This document shows positions 23,645 through 36,305 of a stretch of DNA of 64,000 nucleotides, piece after piece; within the stretch, counting starts at the first letter, position 1, and each line of letters opens with the position of its first letter. The translations under genes were made by a program, and so were the position numbers. This DNA is from Methylobacter tundripaludum SV96 (GTDB lineage Bacteria; Pseudomonadota; Gammaproteobacteria; Methylococcales; Methylomonadaceae): the NCBI RefSeq assembly GCF_000190755.2, contig NZ_JH109153.1, positions 991,872 to 1,055,871 on the forward strand, in the 5' to 3' direction. The notes under the pieces are model-generated. The model was not told the origin of the DNA and searched no databases. It saw only the letters and a program-made list of their open reading frames with translations.

Positions 23645-25423
23645 TTAATAGCCATTCCCAAAGGCTGACATATTCGAACTGGCTTTATATGCCGAGCCAG
23701 TCCATGTAGCGGGTAAGCTCGTCAGGGTGGTGGAAGCACTCGATTCCAGCGCACCGGTTCCCGATCCCAATAGATCAAGGAATCCGATTTGCCCTTTCGA
23801 TCCCAGTATCGCAATCCAATAAGGCTGGGCTGCGGTAACAGAGGCTACGGGAACCGGTACCAAGTTCCACGCTCCAGACTTAAGCGTACTCAATTTACCT
23901 TGAGCGACAAGAGCCCCAGGATGACCGCTATTGTCCTTATAAACACCGGCAACCAGTTCCGTTGCAGTTGAGCTTGCATCCAGATAAACCTGCACAGTGG
24001 TTACTACGCCGGTCTTCTGAGGTGTCGTCCGGTATGCTTGCGCTGTACCCTGCGGTTTATAATCGACCCAAGGCTCTTTGATTTTGTCGCCCATTACAAA
24101 CTGCTGCGGATTTGAAACACTGACTGCAGTCTTTAAGTTGTAAGTGACTTCTGTTGCGGTCAAAGCCCGATTATAAATGCGTACCTCATCAATATAGCCT
24201 TGGAAATACTCGCCCCAAACACTGTTTCCACCGATGCGCAACGCGCCTGTAGATTGCTGAATCAGGCCAGTCTGTGCTCGCTTGGCAACCTCTACACCGT
24301 TCACATAAATCCGCTGATATTGCCCATCATAGGTTGACACAAGATGTGCCCACTGATTTGCCGGCAACTGGCTGGGACCTGATATGACGCGATAACTTCC
24401 ATCATTGAAAGAAGAAAGAGGTACATTGGCATCCTCATTGGCATAGAGGTTATAGACCGCCCCTCCGGACTTTTCCTTCGAGAATACAGTTTTTCCGCCG
24501 GTAGTCAGGGATGTTGGATACACCCATGCCTCAAGGGTCATACTGGTTGAAAGATCCAGTGCTGCGCTGTCATTGACTGAGACCCAGGCATTCGTACCAT
24601 TAAAACTCAGTGCATTTCCACTATGACCGTTGGTTATCCTGGTTGCATTACTAATAGTGCCGAGGTTACCTTGACCCGATGCATCCGCAACAGTAGTGCC
24701 ACTGACTTCATCAAAGCCATAGGCTGCCACCAAGCCGGTATTACTGGTAGATGTAGTCGGCGCTGGAGTCGGAGTCGGAGTCGGCGCTGGCGCTGGAGTC
24801 GAAGTCGCCGTCACGGTAATCAGGTTCGGATAGGTCTTGGTGATGCTTCCGCTGGCTCCGGTTACCGTCAGGCTTACACTATACGTCCCTGGGGTCGCAT
24901 AGGTCGCTGTGGTAACTTTAGCCGTTGTGTTCGTCACGGTAGGCGTGTAGGAACCGGGAAAAGACCATGCCCAGCTGGTAATGGTCCCGGTTGTGACAGG
25001 CGTGAAATCCACCGCCAAAGTTGCGACACCGCTGGTTTTACTTGCTGTAAAATCCGCCGTTACTGCCGTCGTCGCGGCAGGTACTGTCAAATTGGACTCA
25101 TTAGAATAAGCGCTCTCGACGGTCTTGGTCGAATCATAGGCCTTCACAGCGAAATAGTATTTGGTACCCGCTTGTAGACCCGATACCGCGGAAGTAGTTG
25201 CATTGCCTACATCAATGGTTGAGGTGTAATTGCCGCTACTTAAACCGTAAGCTACTTTATATCCCCCCACACTGGATGACGTACTGGCATTCCAGGCGAG
25301 GTTTGCGCTTCCAGCTAATAAATTGCCACTGAATAAAAACAGGGCGAGTCCGACCAACAAAAAGTGAGGGAACAGCTCGCGCAAGGAGGTGTTCGTAAGA
25401 TAATTTTTCATAATAGATTCCAT
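23645..25423 (-). CDS. Secreted FN3-PKD-LamG multidomain protein
   Basis: A protein of up to 592 residues; a second Met four codons in (25411) is an alternative start. A hydrophobic signal segment at ~20-37 is followed by a fibronectin type III domain (~38-112) and a PKD domain (~119-205, SWAWSFPG and TYATPGTYSVSLTV). A Pro/Thr linker (~206-222) leads to a LamG/concanavalin-type domain (~226-430, TLEAWVYPTS, YIDEVRIYNRALTATEV) and a ~150-residue C-terminal beta domain. These are carbohydrate-binding and adhesion folds. It probably binds surface or environmental polysaccharide outside the cell. No enzyme domain is visible. Confidence 0.8.
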   Translation of the reverse strand: MESIMKNYLTNTSLRELFPHFLLVGLALFLFSGNLLAGSANLAWNASTSSSVGGYKVAYGLSSGNYTSTIDVGNATTSAVSGLQAGTKYYFAVKAYDSTKTVESAYSNESNLTVPAATTAVTADFTASKTSGVATLAVDFTPVTTGTITSWAWSFPGSYTPTVTNTTAKVTTATYATPGTYSVSLTVTGASGSITKTYPNLITVTATSTPAPAPTPTPTPAPTTSTSNTGLVAAYGFDEVSGTTVADASGQGNLGTISNATRITNGHSGNALSFNGTNAWVSVNDSAALDLSTSMTLEAWVYPTSLTTGGKTVFSKEKSGGAVYNLYANEDANVPLSSFNDGSYRVISGPSQLPANQWAHLVSTYDGQYQRIYVNGVEVAKRAQTGLIQQSTGALRIGGNSVWGEYFQGYIDEVRIYNRALTATEVTYNLKTAVSVSNPQQFVMGDKIKEPWVDYKPQGTAQAYRTTPQKTGVVTTVQVYLDASSTATELVAGVYKDNSGHPGALVAQGKLSTLKSGAWNLVPVPVASVTAAQPYWIAILGSKGQIGFLDLLGSGTGALESSASTTLTSLPATWTGSAYKASSNMSAFGNGY

Positions 25424-30375: not shown

Positions 30376-30627
30376 ATGAAAATTCAACAAATATTATTAA
30401 CGGGCGCAGCGACGATTATGTTACTGACAACGGGTCCTGTTTGGGCTGAACGTGGAGGAGAAAACAGGCCGCATGTAGAGGCGCATGAACATAGGCATGG
30501 AGATAGGCACGGACATGGGCATGTAAAGGCCCCTGAAATTGATGCTGCATCCGGAACCAGTGCGATCGCCCTGCTGGCGGGCGCTTTATTGCTAGCGGGT
30601 GAAAGGTCTCGGTCTCGACGCTCTTAA
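30376..30627 (+). CDS. VPEID-CTERM-type sorting-signal protein, His-rich
   Basis: An 83-residue secreted protein. Residues 1-24 are a signal peptide (cut after VWA). Residues 33-49 contain seven His in an alternating His/Arg/Gly/Asp stretch (HEHRHGDRHGHGH) that could bind metal ions. Residues 52-56 are APEID, followed by a hydrophobic helix (~60-75) and the basic end RSRSRR. This three-part tail is the known VPEID-CTERM signal recognised by exosortase E. The matching exosortase is the next gene, 406 bases downstream. The mature part would be only ~30 residues. Function unknown; the sorting assignment is strong. Confidence 0.82.
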   Translation: MKIQQILLTGAATIMLLTTGPVWAERGGENRPHVEAHEHRHGDRHGHGHVKAPEIDAASGTSAIALLAGALLLAGERSRSRRS

Positions 30628-31033
30628 CATTACTTGATGTTGAGTATTAAAACCGGATCAGAACATTGAAAGAATACAAAAATGCAGCATTAGCAGAACA
30701 CCGCGTAGCTGCATGGAGTATTTTGGCGAAGCTGGAACGCTAGTGAAAGTGCAGTCAAAATACAAGGCCGTCCGACACGGAGTCAAGACATTGCATTCAC
30801 CTTGTCGTGTGCAAACGAAATAAAGTATGCGACAGGGTGGATGCAGGACGAACGCGAGCCGCCGAAGGACGATAACCGCTAGGTCATTTTTTACTGCTAA
30901 AATCGAATAGTTACCCTTATTAGCAAAAAAACGTCTAGCTTCTGAAAAATCGACAAGCCCTTATTATTCAAAAAATTAACTAGGTTGAACGCATCCTGAT
31001 TTGAACGTTTTTTGCGCAAGATGAGAATAGTGA
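30628..31033. other. Gap between sorting-signal protein and exosortase
   Basis: These 406 bases contain short near-repeats but no open frame, tRNA-like fold or T-tailed hairpin that I can support. A weak GAGAATAG precedes the exosortase start. The gap may carry a separate promoter for the exosortase. Confidence 0.45.
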
Positions 31034-32707
31034 ATGATTTCTGAATATGTGATGCCAGTAAACATGCCCGTAACCTCGAAACGATTGGCTATTCGTTGGA
31101 TGGCGCTTCTAGCAATCATGGCATTCGAACTGATAGTGATAACCGCTCAATATGAAGTGCCCCTCCTATTGGTCAATAATGCCAATTGGTCAGCGTGGCT
31201 GTTCCATTTTTCGAAAGAGATATGGTCGTTAAGTCTCTGGATTTTTTGCGCTTGCCTCCTTATCGCCAGTCCACGACTTAAGCTCATTCTCAGCAATTTA
31301 CAGGAGCAGTCGAGCGATTATCGCTGGTCGGTTTGGCTGGCATTCCATATCCTCGCTTTCATTGCATTCGCGATTATCACCGCACTTATATTTGAAACGC
31401 CCACCAATCCCGCTCGTCTGTCGACCCTCTGGTTTACAGGTTGGTTTGCGTTGGCAAGCGCAACACTGCTGCTATGGCTGCTCGCCTTGGCTCCAGGCCA
31501 TTTTTGGTTGCGGCTGATTCGCCAAGAGCAGATGTCATTACTCTTGGGATGCCTGCTGGGACTATGCGCCTGGATGCTCATAGGAATGCTCGTCCGGCAA
31601 GAAGCTCCCCTCGGTCAAAAAGAATTTTGGAACTCTCTGGCCGTACCTACCTTGCAACTCGTCCATTCACTGCTCGGCTGGGTTTATTCCGACCTCGTCT
31701 ATCAGCCGGAGAGATTCTTATTAGGCACCGCCGATTTCCAGGTTGAAATCAGTTACGCCTGTTCGGGTATCGAAGGTATTTCCCTCATCACGGTATTTCT
31801 TGCAATCTATCTTTGGCTATTCCGCAAGGAACTGCGTTTTCCGCAAGCTTTCTGGCTTTTTCCTCTCGGGATAATCACTATCTGGTTAGCCAACGCCCTA
31901 CGCATCGCCATACTGGTTGTGATCGGAGCATCTTTTTCCTCTGAGATAGCGGCATGGGGTTTTCATGCGCAAGCCGGCTGGATAGCGTTTACCCTAATTG
32001 CACTCGGTGCAATTGCTCTGTCGAACCGGTTGCAGTTCTTTGCCGCTACCCAACCGGACGTTCCAGTTAGCACCGGTAAACCTCTTGCCGTCGCCCTGCT
32101 CGTTCCCTTCCTGGTTCTGATGGCGGTTTCAATGGTGACATCGGCTTTCTCCAGCGGCTTTGACACGCTATATCCGCTACGCGTTGTAGCTATCGTCATA
32201 GCGCTTTACTATTTTCGCAAGGCCTATGCCGGCCTCGGTTGGCGATGGACTTGGCATGCACCGGCAATAGGGGCCGCGGTATTCATAATATGGATATTAC
32301 TGGAACCGGATATTGACAGCAGCAAGACAGCGCTATCGCAAGGCTTGGCGGAGCTTACCAGCGGGTCGGCGGCAGCCTGGTTGGTGTTTCGTGTACTCGG
32401 CTCGGTAATCACCGTGCCTTTGGCCGAGGAACTTGCCTTCCGCGGTTACTTGATCCGTAAGCTGATTGCGAAAGACTTCGAAAATGTACCGCTCGTGCAG
32501 TTCTCATGGTTTTCGTTCATGCTTACGTCGGTACTTTTCGGATTACTGCATGAGCGCTGGATTGCGGGGACTCTAGCCGGAATGTGTTATGCCTTGGCCC
32601 TTTATCGCCGCGGACAGATTGGCGATGCCGTCATTGCCCACATGACGACTAACGCACTGATTGCCATTTTCGTCCTGACCCAGGCACGGTGGTCTTTATG
32701 GTCATGA
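31034..32707 (+). CDS. xrtE: Exosortase E fused to a CPBP-family membrane protease
   Basis: A 557-residue multi-spanning protein. The first ~340 residues are an exosortase with the expected triad: Cys243 in ISYACSGIEG, Arg290 in NALRIA and His311 in GFHAQAGW. The last ~200 residues are a CPBP (CAAX/Rce1-like) protease with EE at 465-466 and Arg470 (EELAFRGYL), His506 (GLLHERW) and HMTTN at 536-540. This fusion is the known exosortase E/protease of VPEID-CTERM systems. It should cut the sorting signal of the neighbour at 30376 in the inner membrane and perhaps pass it to a cell-surface acceptor. All key residues are present. Confidence 0.88.
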   Translation: MISEYVMPVNMPVTSKRLAIRWMALLAIMAFELIVITAQYEVPLLLVNNANWSAWLFHFSKEIWSLSLWIFCACLLIASPRLKLILSNLQEQSSDYRWSVWLAFHILAFIAFAIITALIFETPTNPARLSTLWFTGWFALASATLLLWLLALAPGHFWLRLIRQEQMSLLLGCLLGLCAWMLIGMLVRQEAPLGQKEFWNSLAVPTLQLVHSLLGWVYSDLVYQPERFLLGTADFQVEISYACSGIEGISLITVFLAIYLWLFRKELRFPQAFWLFPLGIITIWLANALRIAILVVIGASFSSEIAAWGFHAQAGWIAFTLIALGAIALSNRLQFFAATQPDVPVSTGKPLAVALLVPFLVLMAVSMVTSAFSSGFDTLYPLRVVAIVIALYYFRKAYAGLGWRWTWHAPAIGAAVFIIWILLEPDIDSSKTALSQGLAELTSGSAAAWLVFRVLGSVITVPLAEELAFRGYLIRKLIAKDFENVPLVQFSWFSFMLTSVLFGLLHERWIAGTLAGMCYALALYRRGQIGDAVIAHMTTNALIAIFVLTQARWSLWS

Positions 32708-32881: not shown

Positions 32882-34078
32882 ATGGATACACGAAAATCTT
32901 TTCTCCTTGTCGGCGGCGGTTTGGTCGGCTTGGCAACTGCTTATCGGCTACAGGAGCGATTCCCGCTGGCAAGTATCACCTTGCTTGAGAAAGAGACCAT
33001 CGTCGGCGCGCACCAGAGCACGCACAACAGCGGCGTGTTACACGCAGGCCTCTATTATGCGCCCGGTTCGGCCAAAGCTAAATTAGCCGTAACCGGCATC
33101 CGGCAAATGACAAAATTTTGCCGAGAGGAAGGTATCGCGCATGAAATCTGCGGCAAACTCGTGGTGGCTGTGACTCCCGAAGAATTGCCGCGATTGGATG
33201 AATTACTCCGGCGCGGTATCGCCAACGGTCTACAAGGATTACGGAAAATCGAAACCACTGAAATGCGCAAAATCGAACCGCATGTCAACGGTCTCGCCGC
33301 CGTGCATGTGCCGGAAGAAGGCATTGTCGATTACCGACAGGTCTGCGATCGACTGGCGTTGCGCATTCAAGAACGAGGAGGCCGTATTATCACAGGCGCC
33401 AAAGTAACACGCCTTGAGCGCAAAGCCGGCGCGTGGGTCGCCACCACGCAGACAGCGGAATTCGATGCCGATTTCCTGATCAACTGCGCCGGGTTGCACT
33501 GCGACCTCGTGGCTAAGCAGGCGGGCGAACAGCGAGATATACGAATTATTCCATTTCGAGGCGAATACTATAATCTCAAGCCTGAGGCCCAACATCTGGT
33601 GAAAAATCTGGTTTACCCCGTACCCAATCCGCAATTCCCGTTCCTGGGTGTCCATTTCACACGGATGATTCAAGGCGGCATCGAGGCCGGTCCGAATGCG
33701 GTTCTCGCCTTTGCTCGCGAAGGTTATCAATTAACGAAATTTAACGGCAGTGACATGCTGGATATGCTGTTTTTCCCCGGCTTATGGCGTTTTCTCCGTA
33801 AATACCCTGCTATGGCATGCACAGAACTGATCCAATCATTCAGCAAAATACACTTTTGTCATGCGCTGCAACAGCTTGTACCTGACATCCGCGCATCTGA
33901 CCTTGTACCCGGCGGCGCGGGCGTCCGCGCGCAAGCCATGAAGCCTACAGGGGATTTCGTGGATGACTTCCATCTGCTAGTCCGTCAGGATGCCTTACAT
34001 GTTCTTAACGCGCCAAGTCCTGCCGCTACAGCTTCACTGGCAATTGGCGAGCACATCGTTAATCAATTACCGATTTGA
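32882..34078 (+). CDS. lhgO: L-2-hydroxyglutarate oxidase
   Basis: A 398-residue FAD enzyme of the DAO family. The FAD motif FLLVGGGLVGLATAYRLQ lies at residues 7-24. ETIVGAHQSTHNSGVLHAGLYYAPGS follows, and this HNSGVLHAG(L/I)YY stretch is characteristic of LhgO. PFRGEYY near residue 222 and PGGAGVRAQA near residue 343 are also conserved. It oxidises L-2-hydroxyglutarate to 2-oxoglutarate at the membrane, feeding electrons to quinone. Copies are often found inside EPS and exosortase-linked regions, but no metabolic link to them is known to me. Confidence 0.88.
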   Translation: MDTRKSFLLVGGGLVGLATAYRLQERFPLASITLLEKETIVGAHQSTHNSGVLHAGLYYAPGSAKAKLAVTGIRQMTKFCREEGIAHEICGKLVVAVTPEELPRLDELLRRGIANGLQGLRKIETTEMRKIEPHVNGLAAVHVPEEGIVDYRQVCDRLALRIQERGGRIITGAKVTRLERKAGAWVATTQTAEFDADFLINCAGLHCDLVAKQAGEQRDIRIIPFRGEYYNLKPEAQHLVKNLVYPVPNPQFPFLGVHFTRMIQGGIEAGPNAVLAFAREGYQLTKFNGSDMLDMLFFPGLWRFLRKYPAMACTELIQSFSKIHFCHALQQLVPDIRASDLVPGGAGVRAQAMKPTGDFVDDFHLLVRQDALHVLNAPSPAATASLAIGEHIVNQLPI

Positions 34079-34447: not shown

Positions 34448-35047
34448 ATGAATACATTCACCTTAAAGAGTTTGATACCTTCATATTATGGTCGCAGTCT
34501 CGGGGCGATTTTTTTCGGCTGCATACTTTTGCTGTCCAATCAGACTTCCGCTCTGGCAGGCAGTGTTTACCGCCTAAATCCTGGCGACAAGCTGGAAATC
34601 ACCGTTTGGCAAGAGGAAAACCTGAAACAGGAGGTCGTAGTGCTGCCGGATGGCACGATCTCTTTTCCCTTGGTCGGACACGTCCCCGCTGCCGGTAAAA
34701 CGACTGAAGACCTGGTCAGGTTATTGCAGGAACGCCTTGATAAATTTATCCCTGACTCCGAAATAAACGTCAGGCTGCTTGCCGCAGAGGGCAACCTTGT
34801 TTATGTCACCGGCGAGGTCGCCCATCCGGGGCAATTCGTAATGAAAGGCCCCATGGATGTGATGCAAGCCTTGAGCATGGCTGGCGGCTTAACGGCATTT
34901 GCAAAAAAGAACAGCATTATAGTTTTGAGGCGTCAAGCGGACGGTCAAACCAGATCCTTTCCTTTCGAATACGGCGATGTGGAGGACGGCGAAAACATAG
35001 AATCGAATATTCTGTTACAAAGCGGCGATACTATTGTTGCGCCTTAA
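34448..35047 (+). CDS. Outer-membrane polysaccharide export protein (short Wza/OPX type)
   Basis: A 199-residue protein with a signal peptide (~1-38, ending SALAG). The Poly_export domain follows: YRLNPGDKLEITVWQEENLKQEVVVLPDGTISFPLVG, then a SLBB domain (NLVYVTGEVAHPGQFVMKGPMDVMQALSMAGG). It lacks a lipobox Cys and the extra domains and C-terminal helix of full Wza. Short forms of this kind are common in EPS and exosortase loci. It should form part of the periplasmic export channel with the chain-length protein and the barrel encoded next. Confidence 0.87.
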   Translation: MNTFTLKSLIPSYYGRSLGAIFFGCILLLSNQTSALAGSVYRLNPGDKLEITVWQEENLKQEVVVLPDGTISFPLVGHVPAAGKTTEDLVRLLQERLDKFIPDSEINVRLLAAEGNLVYVTGEVAHPGQFVMKGPMDVMQALSMAGGLTAFAKKNSIIVLRRQADGQTRSFPFEYGDVEDGENIESNILLQSGDTIVAP

Positions 35048-35063
35048 ATTATTTCAGAAAAGC

Positions 35064-36305
35064 ATGTACCGCAACCAAAGCATAGCCCTGCTTGTTCTAG
35101 CCTGTATTGTTCCCGGCAAAGACGTAGCTGCCGCCGAATGGGCTTTGAAAGGCTCCTTGGGACAACAGCTGCATTATGACGATAATATTTCCTTGAGCAC
35201 TATTCGAAAAGAGTCTGTTGCCGGATACCTTTTGGCGCCAAGTTTACAAGCCTCCAGAAAAACGGGGGCGCTGGACGTTGCCTTAGAAGGCCGAGGCGAT
35301 ATTCGTCGTTACGATGATTCACGCTGGGATTGTAATAGCTATAATCTAGGCTCGAACAATGATTATCGGGCAAAGCGTAGTGTTTTTAGTTTAAGCGGCG
35401 GGTACGCCGTTAGCTGTTCCTATTCTCAACAAATCACGGATACAGGATTGCTCGTGCCGGCCAGTCAGGCTGAAAACTATCGTTTGGCGCCCTCGTGGAC
35501 TTGGCAGTGGACACCCCGGGATCAGATGACCCTGGGCACTTCGTACTCCAAGACAAGCTATAGCAACTCACTTAACGGCAGCGCTTCAAATATTGGCACC
35601 GGTTTCAGCGGCAATGATACCTATACCGTTAACCTGGGCGGGAATCATGAATGGAACCGACGCCTTTCCCTAAATGAAAAACTTTTTTTTTCCAATGTCC
35701 AATACACTGAACCGAACGCATCGACTCAAAACCTGTTTGGCTTTCAACTGGGTGCGAATTACAAAATCAATCACGACTGGGCCATAAGCGCGGGTGGAGG
35801 GCCATTGTGGGTTGATACCCAGCTGAGTTCGGATAGCACATCAGGTCAGAGTTCTTCGTTATCCTTGGGTAGTGTCGCTAATATCAATTTAAGCTATAGT
35901 ACTCAGCTAACCCAATTCTCTACCGGTTTTTCCAACGCAGTTAACCCGAGCGCCATCGGCCAAACGCTGGAAACCAGCTCCACCTTCGCTAATTATTCAT
36001 ACCATTTAACCAAGCATCTTTTGCTGGATCTCACAAGTAATTATTCACGCAGTAAATCGATCGGCGGACAATCATTCAATAACTCAACCAATCAATTTAA
36101 TCGGAACTACTTCACTGTGGCTCCAGGTATTGCCTGGGAGCTCGCGAAAAACTGGAAACTCAAGGGCAGCTACGTTTACAGATGGCAGGATTACCAGCAA
36201 GACAAGAATTTGCAAAATTTCAATTTAAATGCGGGAACCAGTGATTCTAACGCCGTGATGTTTTCACTGGGCTATTCTTGGGATGGAATACGAGCTTCCC
36301 GTTAG
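35064..36305 (+). CDS. Outer-membrane beta-barrel protein of an EPS locus
   Basis: A 413-residue protein from the ATG at 35064, chosen over a TTG 30 bases earlier because it gives a compact signal peptide (~1-23, ending DVAAAEW). The rest alternates polar and aromatic residues (GQQLHYDDNIS, YSKTSYSNSLNG, LGGNHEWNRRLSLNEKLFF, LKGSYVYRWQDYQQD), as in barrels of 14-18 strands. The start WALKGSLGQQLHYDDNISL resembles the outer-membrane proteins that accompany exosortase/EPS systems and EpsL-type porins. It probably provides the outer-membrane pore or anchor next to the short exporter. The strand count was not computed. Confidence 0.75.
   Translation: MYRNQSIALLVLACIVPGKDVAAAEWALKGSLGQQLHYDDNISLSTIRKESVAGYLLAPSLQASRKTGALDVALEGRGDIRRYDDSRWDCNSYNLGSNNDYRAKRSVFSLSGGYAVSCSYSQQITDTGLLVPASQAENYRLAPSWTWQWTPRDQMTLGTSYSKTSYSNSLNGSASNIGTGFSGNDTYTVNLGGNHEWNRRLSLNEKLFFSNVQYTEPNASTQNLFGFQLGANYKINHDWAISAGGGPLWVDTQLSSDSTSGQSSSLSLGSVANINLSYSTQLTQFSTGFSNAVNPSAIGQTLETSSTFANYSYHLTKHLLLDLTSNYSRSKSIGGQSFNNSTNQFNRNYFTVAPGIAWELAKNWKLKGSYVYRWQDYQQDKNLQNFNLNAGTSDSNAVMFSLGYSWDGIRASR

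Follow-up and report, generated by a model that had tools for sequence, protein, structure and literature searches.

We analyzed a 64,000-nucleotide stretch of the Methylobacter tundripaludum SV96 genome (contig NZ_JH109153.1, positions 991,872 to 1,055,871; hereafter the window, whose own numbering is used for coordinates) and found that it encodes, on the forward strand, an 83-residue VPEID-CTERM substrate (30376..30627) and a 557-residue exosortase E/CPBP-protease fusion (31034..32707). Both open reading frames (ORFs) were recovered where an original prediction, made from the sequence alone, had placed them. That prediction had assigned the two proteins to a known enzyme-substrate class, and the assignment was borne out, as both proteins pass the curated cut-offs of TIGR04161 and TIGR04162. 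Since these models are a curated NCBIfam pair, VPEID-CTERM and exosortase E/protease, the locus is, by its profile matches, a member of that pair and a further case of a known system. The two proteins very likely form a dedicated enzyme-target pair, and the explanation as a whole, in which an exosortase system devoted to very few targets processes its precursor by the steps proposed below, is probable.

The substrate and the fusion enzyme

To assess the small protein, a match to the VPEID-CTERM profile had been set beforehand as the check; TIGR04161 matched it at 56.5 bits (cut-off 33), with residues 52-82 aligned to model positions 1-31 of 31. The C-terminal sorting signal, APEIDAASGTSAIALLAGALLLAGERSRSRRS (30529..30624, forward strand), was also recovered in alignment A2 and is one row of profile A3, which we built from 47 tails found beside the fusion enzyme. 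Ahead of this signal lie a Sec-type signal peptide, MKIQQILLTGAATIMLLTTGPVWA, ending in VWA at residue 24 (residues 1-24), and a His-rich linker of 28 residues with 7 His (residues 25-52); the linker leads into the PEID motif (APEID in context), a hydrophobic helix and a basic end. The proposal of a tiny substrate therefore held. Signal-peptide ends throughout were called with a home-made rule rather than a trained predictor, and single cuts may be several residues off. A short and partly low-complexity ORF could be spurious and resemble the family by chance; we regard this as excluded, given 56.5 bits against a curated model, the preservation of the ORF in relatives with in-frame changes of length (protein and DNA alignments) and the co-occurrence of enzyme and tail described below.

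The enzyme starts 406 bp after the substrate stop codon, so that tail and fusion enzyme are encoded in the same genome. It matched TIGR04162 at 241.5 bits (cut-off 150; model positions 43-515 of 516) and also exceeded the cut-offs of TIGR03008 (151.1 bits, cut-off 81.05), TIGR04178 (61.7 bits, cut-off 23) and the Pfam Rce1-like family (53.4 bits, cut-off 22.4). Pfam Exosortase_EpsH was narrowly missed (23.0 bits, cut-off 25.7), and an XrtA-type assignment fails (TIGR02602, 22.6 bits, cut-off 105.55). The exosortase core (31742..32023, forward strand; TIGR04178 match on residues 237-330) carries Cys243, Arg290 and His311, and the CPBP/Rce1-like core (32375..32659, forward strand; Pfam match on residues 448-542) carries Glu465-Glu466, His506 and His536-x3-Asn540. 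All the catalytic residues named in the original prediction are thus present, and all eight are invariant in two alignments that both include the window protein (n = 7 and n = 59). Across a wider set of 83 sequences, counting rows that reach the column, the first five were conserved in 82/82 and the last three in 81/81; the rows falling short are L039 (misread frame) and L062 (contig end). Because the patterns used to fetch this wider set include His311 and Glu465-Glu466, conservation of these residues there is partly a matter of selection, and only the other five are unbiased. We take Cys243, Arg290 and His311 to be the catalytic residues of the exosortase half. The Cys as exosortase catalytic residue comes in part from the accessible text of PMC1569441, and the EE, H and HxxxN motif of CPBP glutamic proteases likewise stands in that of PMC11980579.

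An AlphaFold2 model of the 557-residue enzyme was confident (mean pLDDT 88.8, pTM 0.79). Searching by sequence yielded no solved relative at E 1 or better, and comparing the model with PDB folds yielded no match at E ≤ 0.001 (best E 2.3). Even Rce1-like relatives were missing from the fold matches, and nothing is therefore concluded from them.

In the precursor, two better conserved signals flank a variable linker, and we propose the following mechanism. The precursor would be exported by Sec and trimmed after VWA at residue 24, with its C-terminal helix keeping it in the inner membrane. Cleavage near PEI by the exosortase half (Cys243/Arg290/His311) would then transfer a peptide of 25-30 residues either to water or to a small acceptor in the envelope, while the glutamic CPBP half (Glu465-Glu466/His506/His536/Asn540) would remove the left-over helix or cut a second time. 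In the Methylobacter-like clade, the neighboring Wza-like and barrel proteins may let the product out together with the polymer. Two complete active sites in a fixed fusion suggest two acts on one tail, namely transfer or cleavage at the cysteine site and cleavage within the helix at the glutamic site; we consider the odds on such a division of labor to be about even. To our knowledge, no acceptor, product or role is known for exosortase E/protease. Because the pair is compact, with two candidate targets, a single exosortase found in the genome and close relatives among named species or strains of Methylobacter and Methylomicrobium, one or two peptides could suffice to follow cutting and attachment.

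Co-occurrence and anatomy of the targets

The genome that holds the window (three contigs, 4.85 Mb, completeness 100) encodes a single exosortase in a TIGR04178 search, and the nearest named loci by enzyme are Methylobacter. Two of its proteins exceed the TIGR04161 cut-off, and profile A3 returned the same two at E ≤ 1e-9. The second is a 92-residue protein on another contig (L024:9750-10028; G000:C1:2014749-2015027), unlinked to the enzyme and adjoining heptosyltransferase-like genes and a ferredoxin-like gene, which we named by eye from their sequences, without a family search. The two proteins have the tail in common and little else, as is expected of a sorting signal. The original prediction had given the enzyme a substrate of its own: a linked target does stand beside it, but with only one exosortase found in the genome, the second, unlinked protein has to be counted as a further candidate.

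To determine whether enzyme and tail occur together, we searched related genomes, and TIGR04162 exceeded its cut-off in 7/101. Profile A3 (E 0.01) found a tail in all seven of these and in 0/94 others. The independent model TIGR04161 (E 0.001) found one in 6/7, five of them over its cut-off, and again in 0/94; the seventh relative, G006, encodes a 59-residue APEIG protein just upstream of the enzyme that TIGR04161 missed. Among 369 genomes of the class, the full fusion or the tail appeared solely in the window genome (thresholds 1e-15 and 1e-4), and five further genomes matched the CPBP part only, below cut-off. We also examined 45 genomes from the order of G109, the Singulisphaera genome of locus L038. 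A tail was found at 1e-5 in 16/45, all 16 among the 19 genomes with a fusion (one-sided Fisher 1.5e-9). Those 19 comprise 17 over the cut-off, one at a contig end that scored 133 bits and one split in two frames; TIGR04162 matched 42/45 genomes at 1e-10, the 23 without a fusion via the CPBP part only. The fairest tests are the absence of the tail from the 94 other relatives and from the 368 other genomes of the class, together with the independent TIGR04161 count. One contig (G511:C251:1412-2867) carries the exosortase and CPBP parts in two separate frames, which may be a natural split or a frameshift.

Several observations weigh against the explanation given here. Since A3 was made from tails beside this very enzyme, its agreement is partly built in: 3/7 relatives and 7/16 tail genomes in the order of G109 have a tail identical to an A3 row, leaving 4 and 9 without one. 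In that order, 3/19 fusion genomes fell below the tail cut-off; the tail of one, G507, can be recognized by eye, and G500 and G539 have no tail within 3.2 kb around the enzyme. Export of the second tail protein in the window genome is unsure, because it has no positive charge ahead of its first hydrophobic stretch. Finally, the role given to the CPBP half in clearing the helix is a guess.

Next, we surveyed the neighborhoods of 80 of 292 confirmed relatives, spanning Gamma-, Beta- and Alphaproteobacteria, Planctomycetes, Acidobacteria, Myxococcales and others. A tail ORF lay within 4 kb of the enzyme in 61/80 loci by pattern scan and in four more by looser rules; the match in L053 was discounted as an ordinary PEP tail, leaving 64/80 loci with a nearby tail. 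In seven of the other 16 the contig extends less than 1 kb ahead of the match (L045, L065, L084, L092, L097, L101 and L104), and the remaining nine are L031, L036, L050, L053, L058, L061, L062, L089 and L096. When profile A3 was run on 33 of the 80 genomes, these nine included, at least one tail was found at E 0.01 in 33/33, with 1-8 in each; L096 gave only a weak best tail (2.9e-4, on a frame of 365). We checked where the best tail lies in all of the nine but L050 and L096, and it was outside the fetched flanks in 7/7. According to the original prediction, homologous enzymes that lack such a neighbor and target other proteins would count against it, and here the picture is mixed: some do lack an adjacent target, but the nine that were tested have a tail elsewhere in the genome, one of them weakly.

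A stricter rule that also required a signal peptide retained 62/82 loci (60 of the 80, the window and L023) with 87 targets, after one false match was dropped. Taking the nearest target at each locus (n = 62), the median precursor is 76 residues and the median linker 19.5 residues; by our signal-peptide rule, the linker is at most 10 residues in 23/62 and more than 100 in 7/62. The nearest target lies upstream on the same strand in 54/62 loci, and 14/62 have 2 to 5 targets within 5 kb, the maximum being five in tandem (L081). The same tail also ends larger proteins of 229-367 residues in L032, L079, L082, L098 and L102, so that the enzyme is not limited to micropeptides. We compared all 64 pairs of targets with a tail identity of at least 75%, and mean identity was 22% in the linker, 85% in the tail and 46% in the signal peptide. 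The linker was less alike than the tail in 64/64, which follows in part from having chosen pairs with alike tails. Tandem arrays of 4-5 micropeptide genes were seen at L081:8685-9689, L103:8907-9699 and L085:4360-5109, with alike tails and differing linkers (5-12 residues, one of 26).

These dimensions bear on the possibility that the tiny proteins, whether processed or not, serve the enzyme as small partners in the membrane or as regulators instead of being its cargo. Processing of targets with linkers of at most 10 residues would leave almost nothing, and both the divergence of the linker and the frequent upstream, same-strand position of the gene fit a partner. Against it, the same tail ends the larger proteins just mentioned, and up to five tandem copies fit cargo better than a subunit; we hold a partner or regulator to be unlikely. 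A wider generalization would be that exosortase E/protease is fundamentally a system for micropeptides. Many lineages would then have a target made of a signal peptide joined almost directly to a sorting signal and processed to a peptide of 4-10 residues; the task of the enzyme would be to produce short peptides for the envelope (as tags, primers or signals) instead of sorting proteins, with the 28-residue His-rich peptide here among its longer products. We offer this only as a speculation, and a rather doubtful one. Still, the family-wide picture of targets, often nearly all signal with little body, deserves further attention: any role for exosortase E/protease must also fit targets with nearly no body, which narrows the possible purposes.

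The system can be set against several described ones. Within TIGR04162/TIGR04161, the window proteins resemble the curated pair in exceeding both cut-offs over nearly full models, with a small substrate beside the enzyme, and differ in the His-rich linker and the second, unlinked substrate. XrtA/PEP-CTERM (EpsH; Haft 2006, accessible text of PMC1569441) shares a signal peptide with a tripartite tail, the Cys/Arg/His core and an exopolysaccharide (EPS) locus with chain-length, amidotransferase and export homologs, here below cut-offs; in the window genome, PEID replaces PEP, the enzyme is fused to a CPBP protease and no second exosortase was found. The 33 genomes searched have 1-8 tails each, compared with a reported median of eight and up to 65 for XrtA/PEP-CTERM, and the same text remarked in 2006 on fusions of EpsH-like and CAAX-protease-like domains (PMC1569441). 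PMC11980579 reports that a CPBP protease cuts a C-terminal sorting tag, as in MrtJ/JDVT-CTERM and the myxosortase MrtX, and MrtJ shares the two-gene enzyme-target neighborhood; in the sections of that paper available, no exosortase domain is described and the tag has an invariant Cys, which VPEID tails lack. Rhombosortase/GlyGly-CTERM similarly has enzyme and target adjacent in most single-target genomes, but is a serine rhomboid protease of an unrelated family rather than an exosortase E/CPBP fusion (excerpts of PMC3237569). A search of the open literature, with subscription papers outside its reach, returned no paper naming VPEID-CTERM, or XrtE beside exosortase.

The His-rich linker

The original prediction had suggested that the His-rich peptide might serve as a metal-binding or adhesive surface tag. 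In composition, the linker does stand out: 7 His in 28 residues is the top His share among linkers of at least 10 residues, and seven or more would arise by chance with P = 8e-6 if His were as frequent as in long frames of the loci, or with 2e-4 if it were as frequent as in the other linkers. Across lineages, His makes up 5.1% of 1211 linker residues (linkers of 10-75 residues; 4.6% without the window) which is 1.9 times its 2.7% share in the long open frames at these loci, though not all such frames are necessarily genes. Linkers with His are seen again in L073, L067 (Singulisphaera), L026 and L029, and ZepA, a PEP-CTERM exoprotein, reportedly handles zinc (PMC10957091, in part).

Other evidence points away from a tag selected for metal binding or adhesion and anchored by the exosortase. 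The closest relative found (L025, enzyme 85% identical) has 0 His in a 22-residue linker; identity between the two loci is 94% in the tail, 83% in the signal peptide and only 29% in the linker. An imperfect 12-bp tandem repeat (30483..30523, forward strand; Tandem Repeats Finder, 3.4 copies, 79% match) underlies most of the His run (residues 37-49). The linkers are also enriched in Cys, Ser, Trp, Asn, Lys, Pro and Gly, as generic disordered linkers are. Among 30 window proteins compared with NCBIfam, no conspicuous metal-handling gene was seen except a TonB-receptor-like gene about 18 kb off. Like ZepA, the substrate is a His-bearing exported protein with a C-terminal sorting tail; unlike ZepA, which is described in the available parts of PMC10957091 as folded, with two domains and a conserved His motif, its linker is short, repetitive and unconserved, and neither the alignment nor the linker comparison showed conserved His ligands among relatives. 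With the His unconserved and so many of the nearest linkers at 10 residues or fewer, the tag did not hold up as a general function, and we judge it improbable at this locus as well. We read the His run as a loosely constrained, presumably disordered linker with a local repeat expansion rather than as a conserved function.

Polysaccharide setting and neighboring sequence

The location of the pair had further hinted that a polysaccharide might be the acceptor. By NCBIfam and Pfam, the window holds flippase-like, UDP-sugar dehydrogenase, glycosyltransferase, Wza-like and barrel-like proteins, along with XrtA-type chain-length, amidotransferase and export homologs that all fall below cut-offs. The Wza-like export protein and the outer-membrane barrel-like protein lie downstream of the enzyme (34448..36305, forward strand; Poly_export 83.4 bits, OMP_b-brl 28.2 bits, just under the cut-off of 28.7), and homologs of the two are near the pair in 7/7 other close loci (tblastn). 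A similar link to polysaccharide has been suggested for cyanoexosortase B (PMC12188702, in part), and disruption of epsH reportedly lowers EPS in Methylomonas LW13 (accessible text of PMC11072679, citing earlier work). To see how far the setting extends, we searched 11 EPS-type window proteins against loci of at least 13 kb (tblastn, 1e-6), a search that distant glycosyltransferases escape. Homologs of any of them were found in 12/55 loci: 7/7 with an enzyme 63-85% identical and only 5/48 of the others. Moreover, 20 hand-picked neighbor proteins from ten other loci (18 of 60 listed plus two of L021) included no polysaccharide Pfam family; eight matched nothing, and the neighbors at those loci include a UvrD helicase, a lipoamide-dehydrogenase-like protein, a fructose-bisphosphate aldolase and M49 and M61 peptidases. 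On these counts, the pair seems to be a self-contained cassette whose EPS link is local to one clade. The EPS co-occurrence holds among close loci but rarely beyond them, which gives the polymer weak support as acceptor. Attachment of the peptide to the exopolysaccharide of the surrounding locus is possible, though we would not favor it, and as general functions neither the His tag nor the polymer acceptor is supported.

The EPS genes of the window at 460-21959 include the XrtA-type chain-length protein and amidotransferase, in a genome where the search for exosortases returned only the fusion enzyme.

The 406-bp spacer between substrate and enzyme (30628..31033, forward strand) was examined in DNA alignment A5. 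About 300 bp of it (30640-30960) are unmatched in L026, L028 and L030; these loci have a short inverted repeat, CCGGATCAG / CTGATCCGG, between the substrate and enzyme genes, a hairpin as seen in the alignment rather than from folding. A repeated mobile element was considered for 30640-30960 and rejected, as this segment is single copy in the genome. Upstream of the substrate, no sigma-54 promoter, a mark of XrtA/PEP-CTERM targets, was found near 30376 (TGGCAC-N5-TTGC, one mismatch allowed); the pattern occurs at four sites in the window compared with 5.8 expected, and sigma-70-like sites are at chance level (five found, 5.9 expected).

Between the enzyme and the Wza-like gene lies an L-2-hydroxyglutarate oxidase gene (32882..34078, forward strand; NF008726, 528 bits, cut-off 299). 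It is near the pair in 5/82 other loci, all of them close ones (L020, L025, L026, L029 and L030; tblastn), with no tblastn match in the close loci L027 and L028, and is probably unrelated to sorting. Finally, a large LamG/PKD/fn3 protein without a VPEID tail is encoded at 23645-25423, and its homologs are near the pair in L020, L026, L027, L028 and L029.

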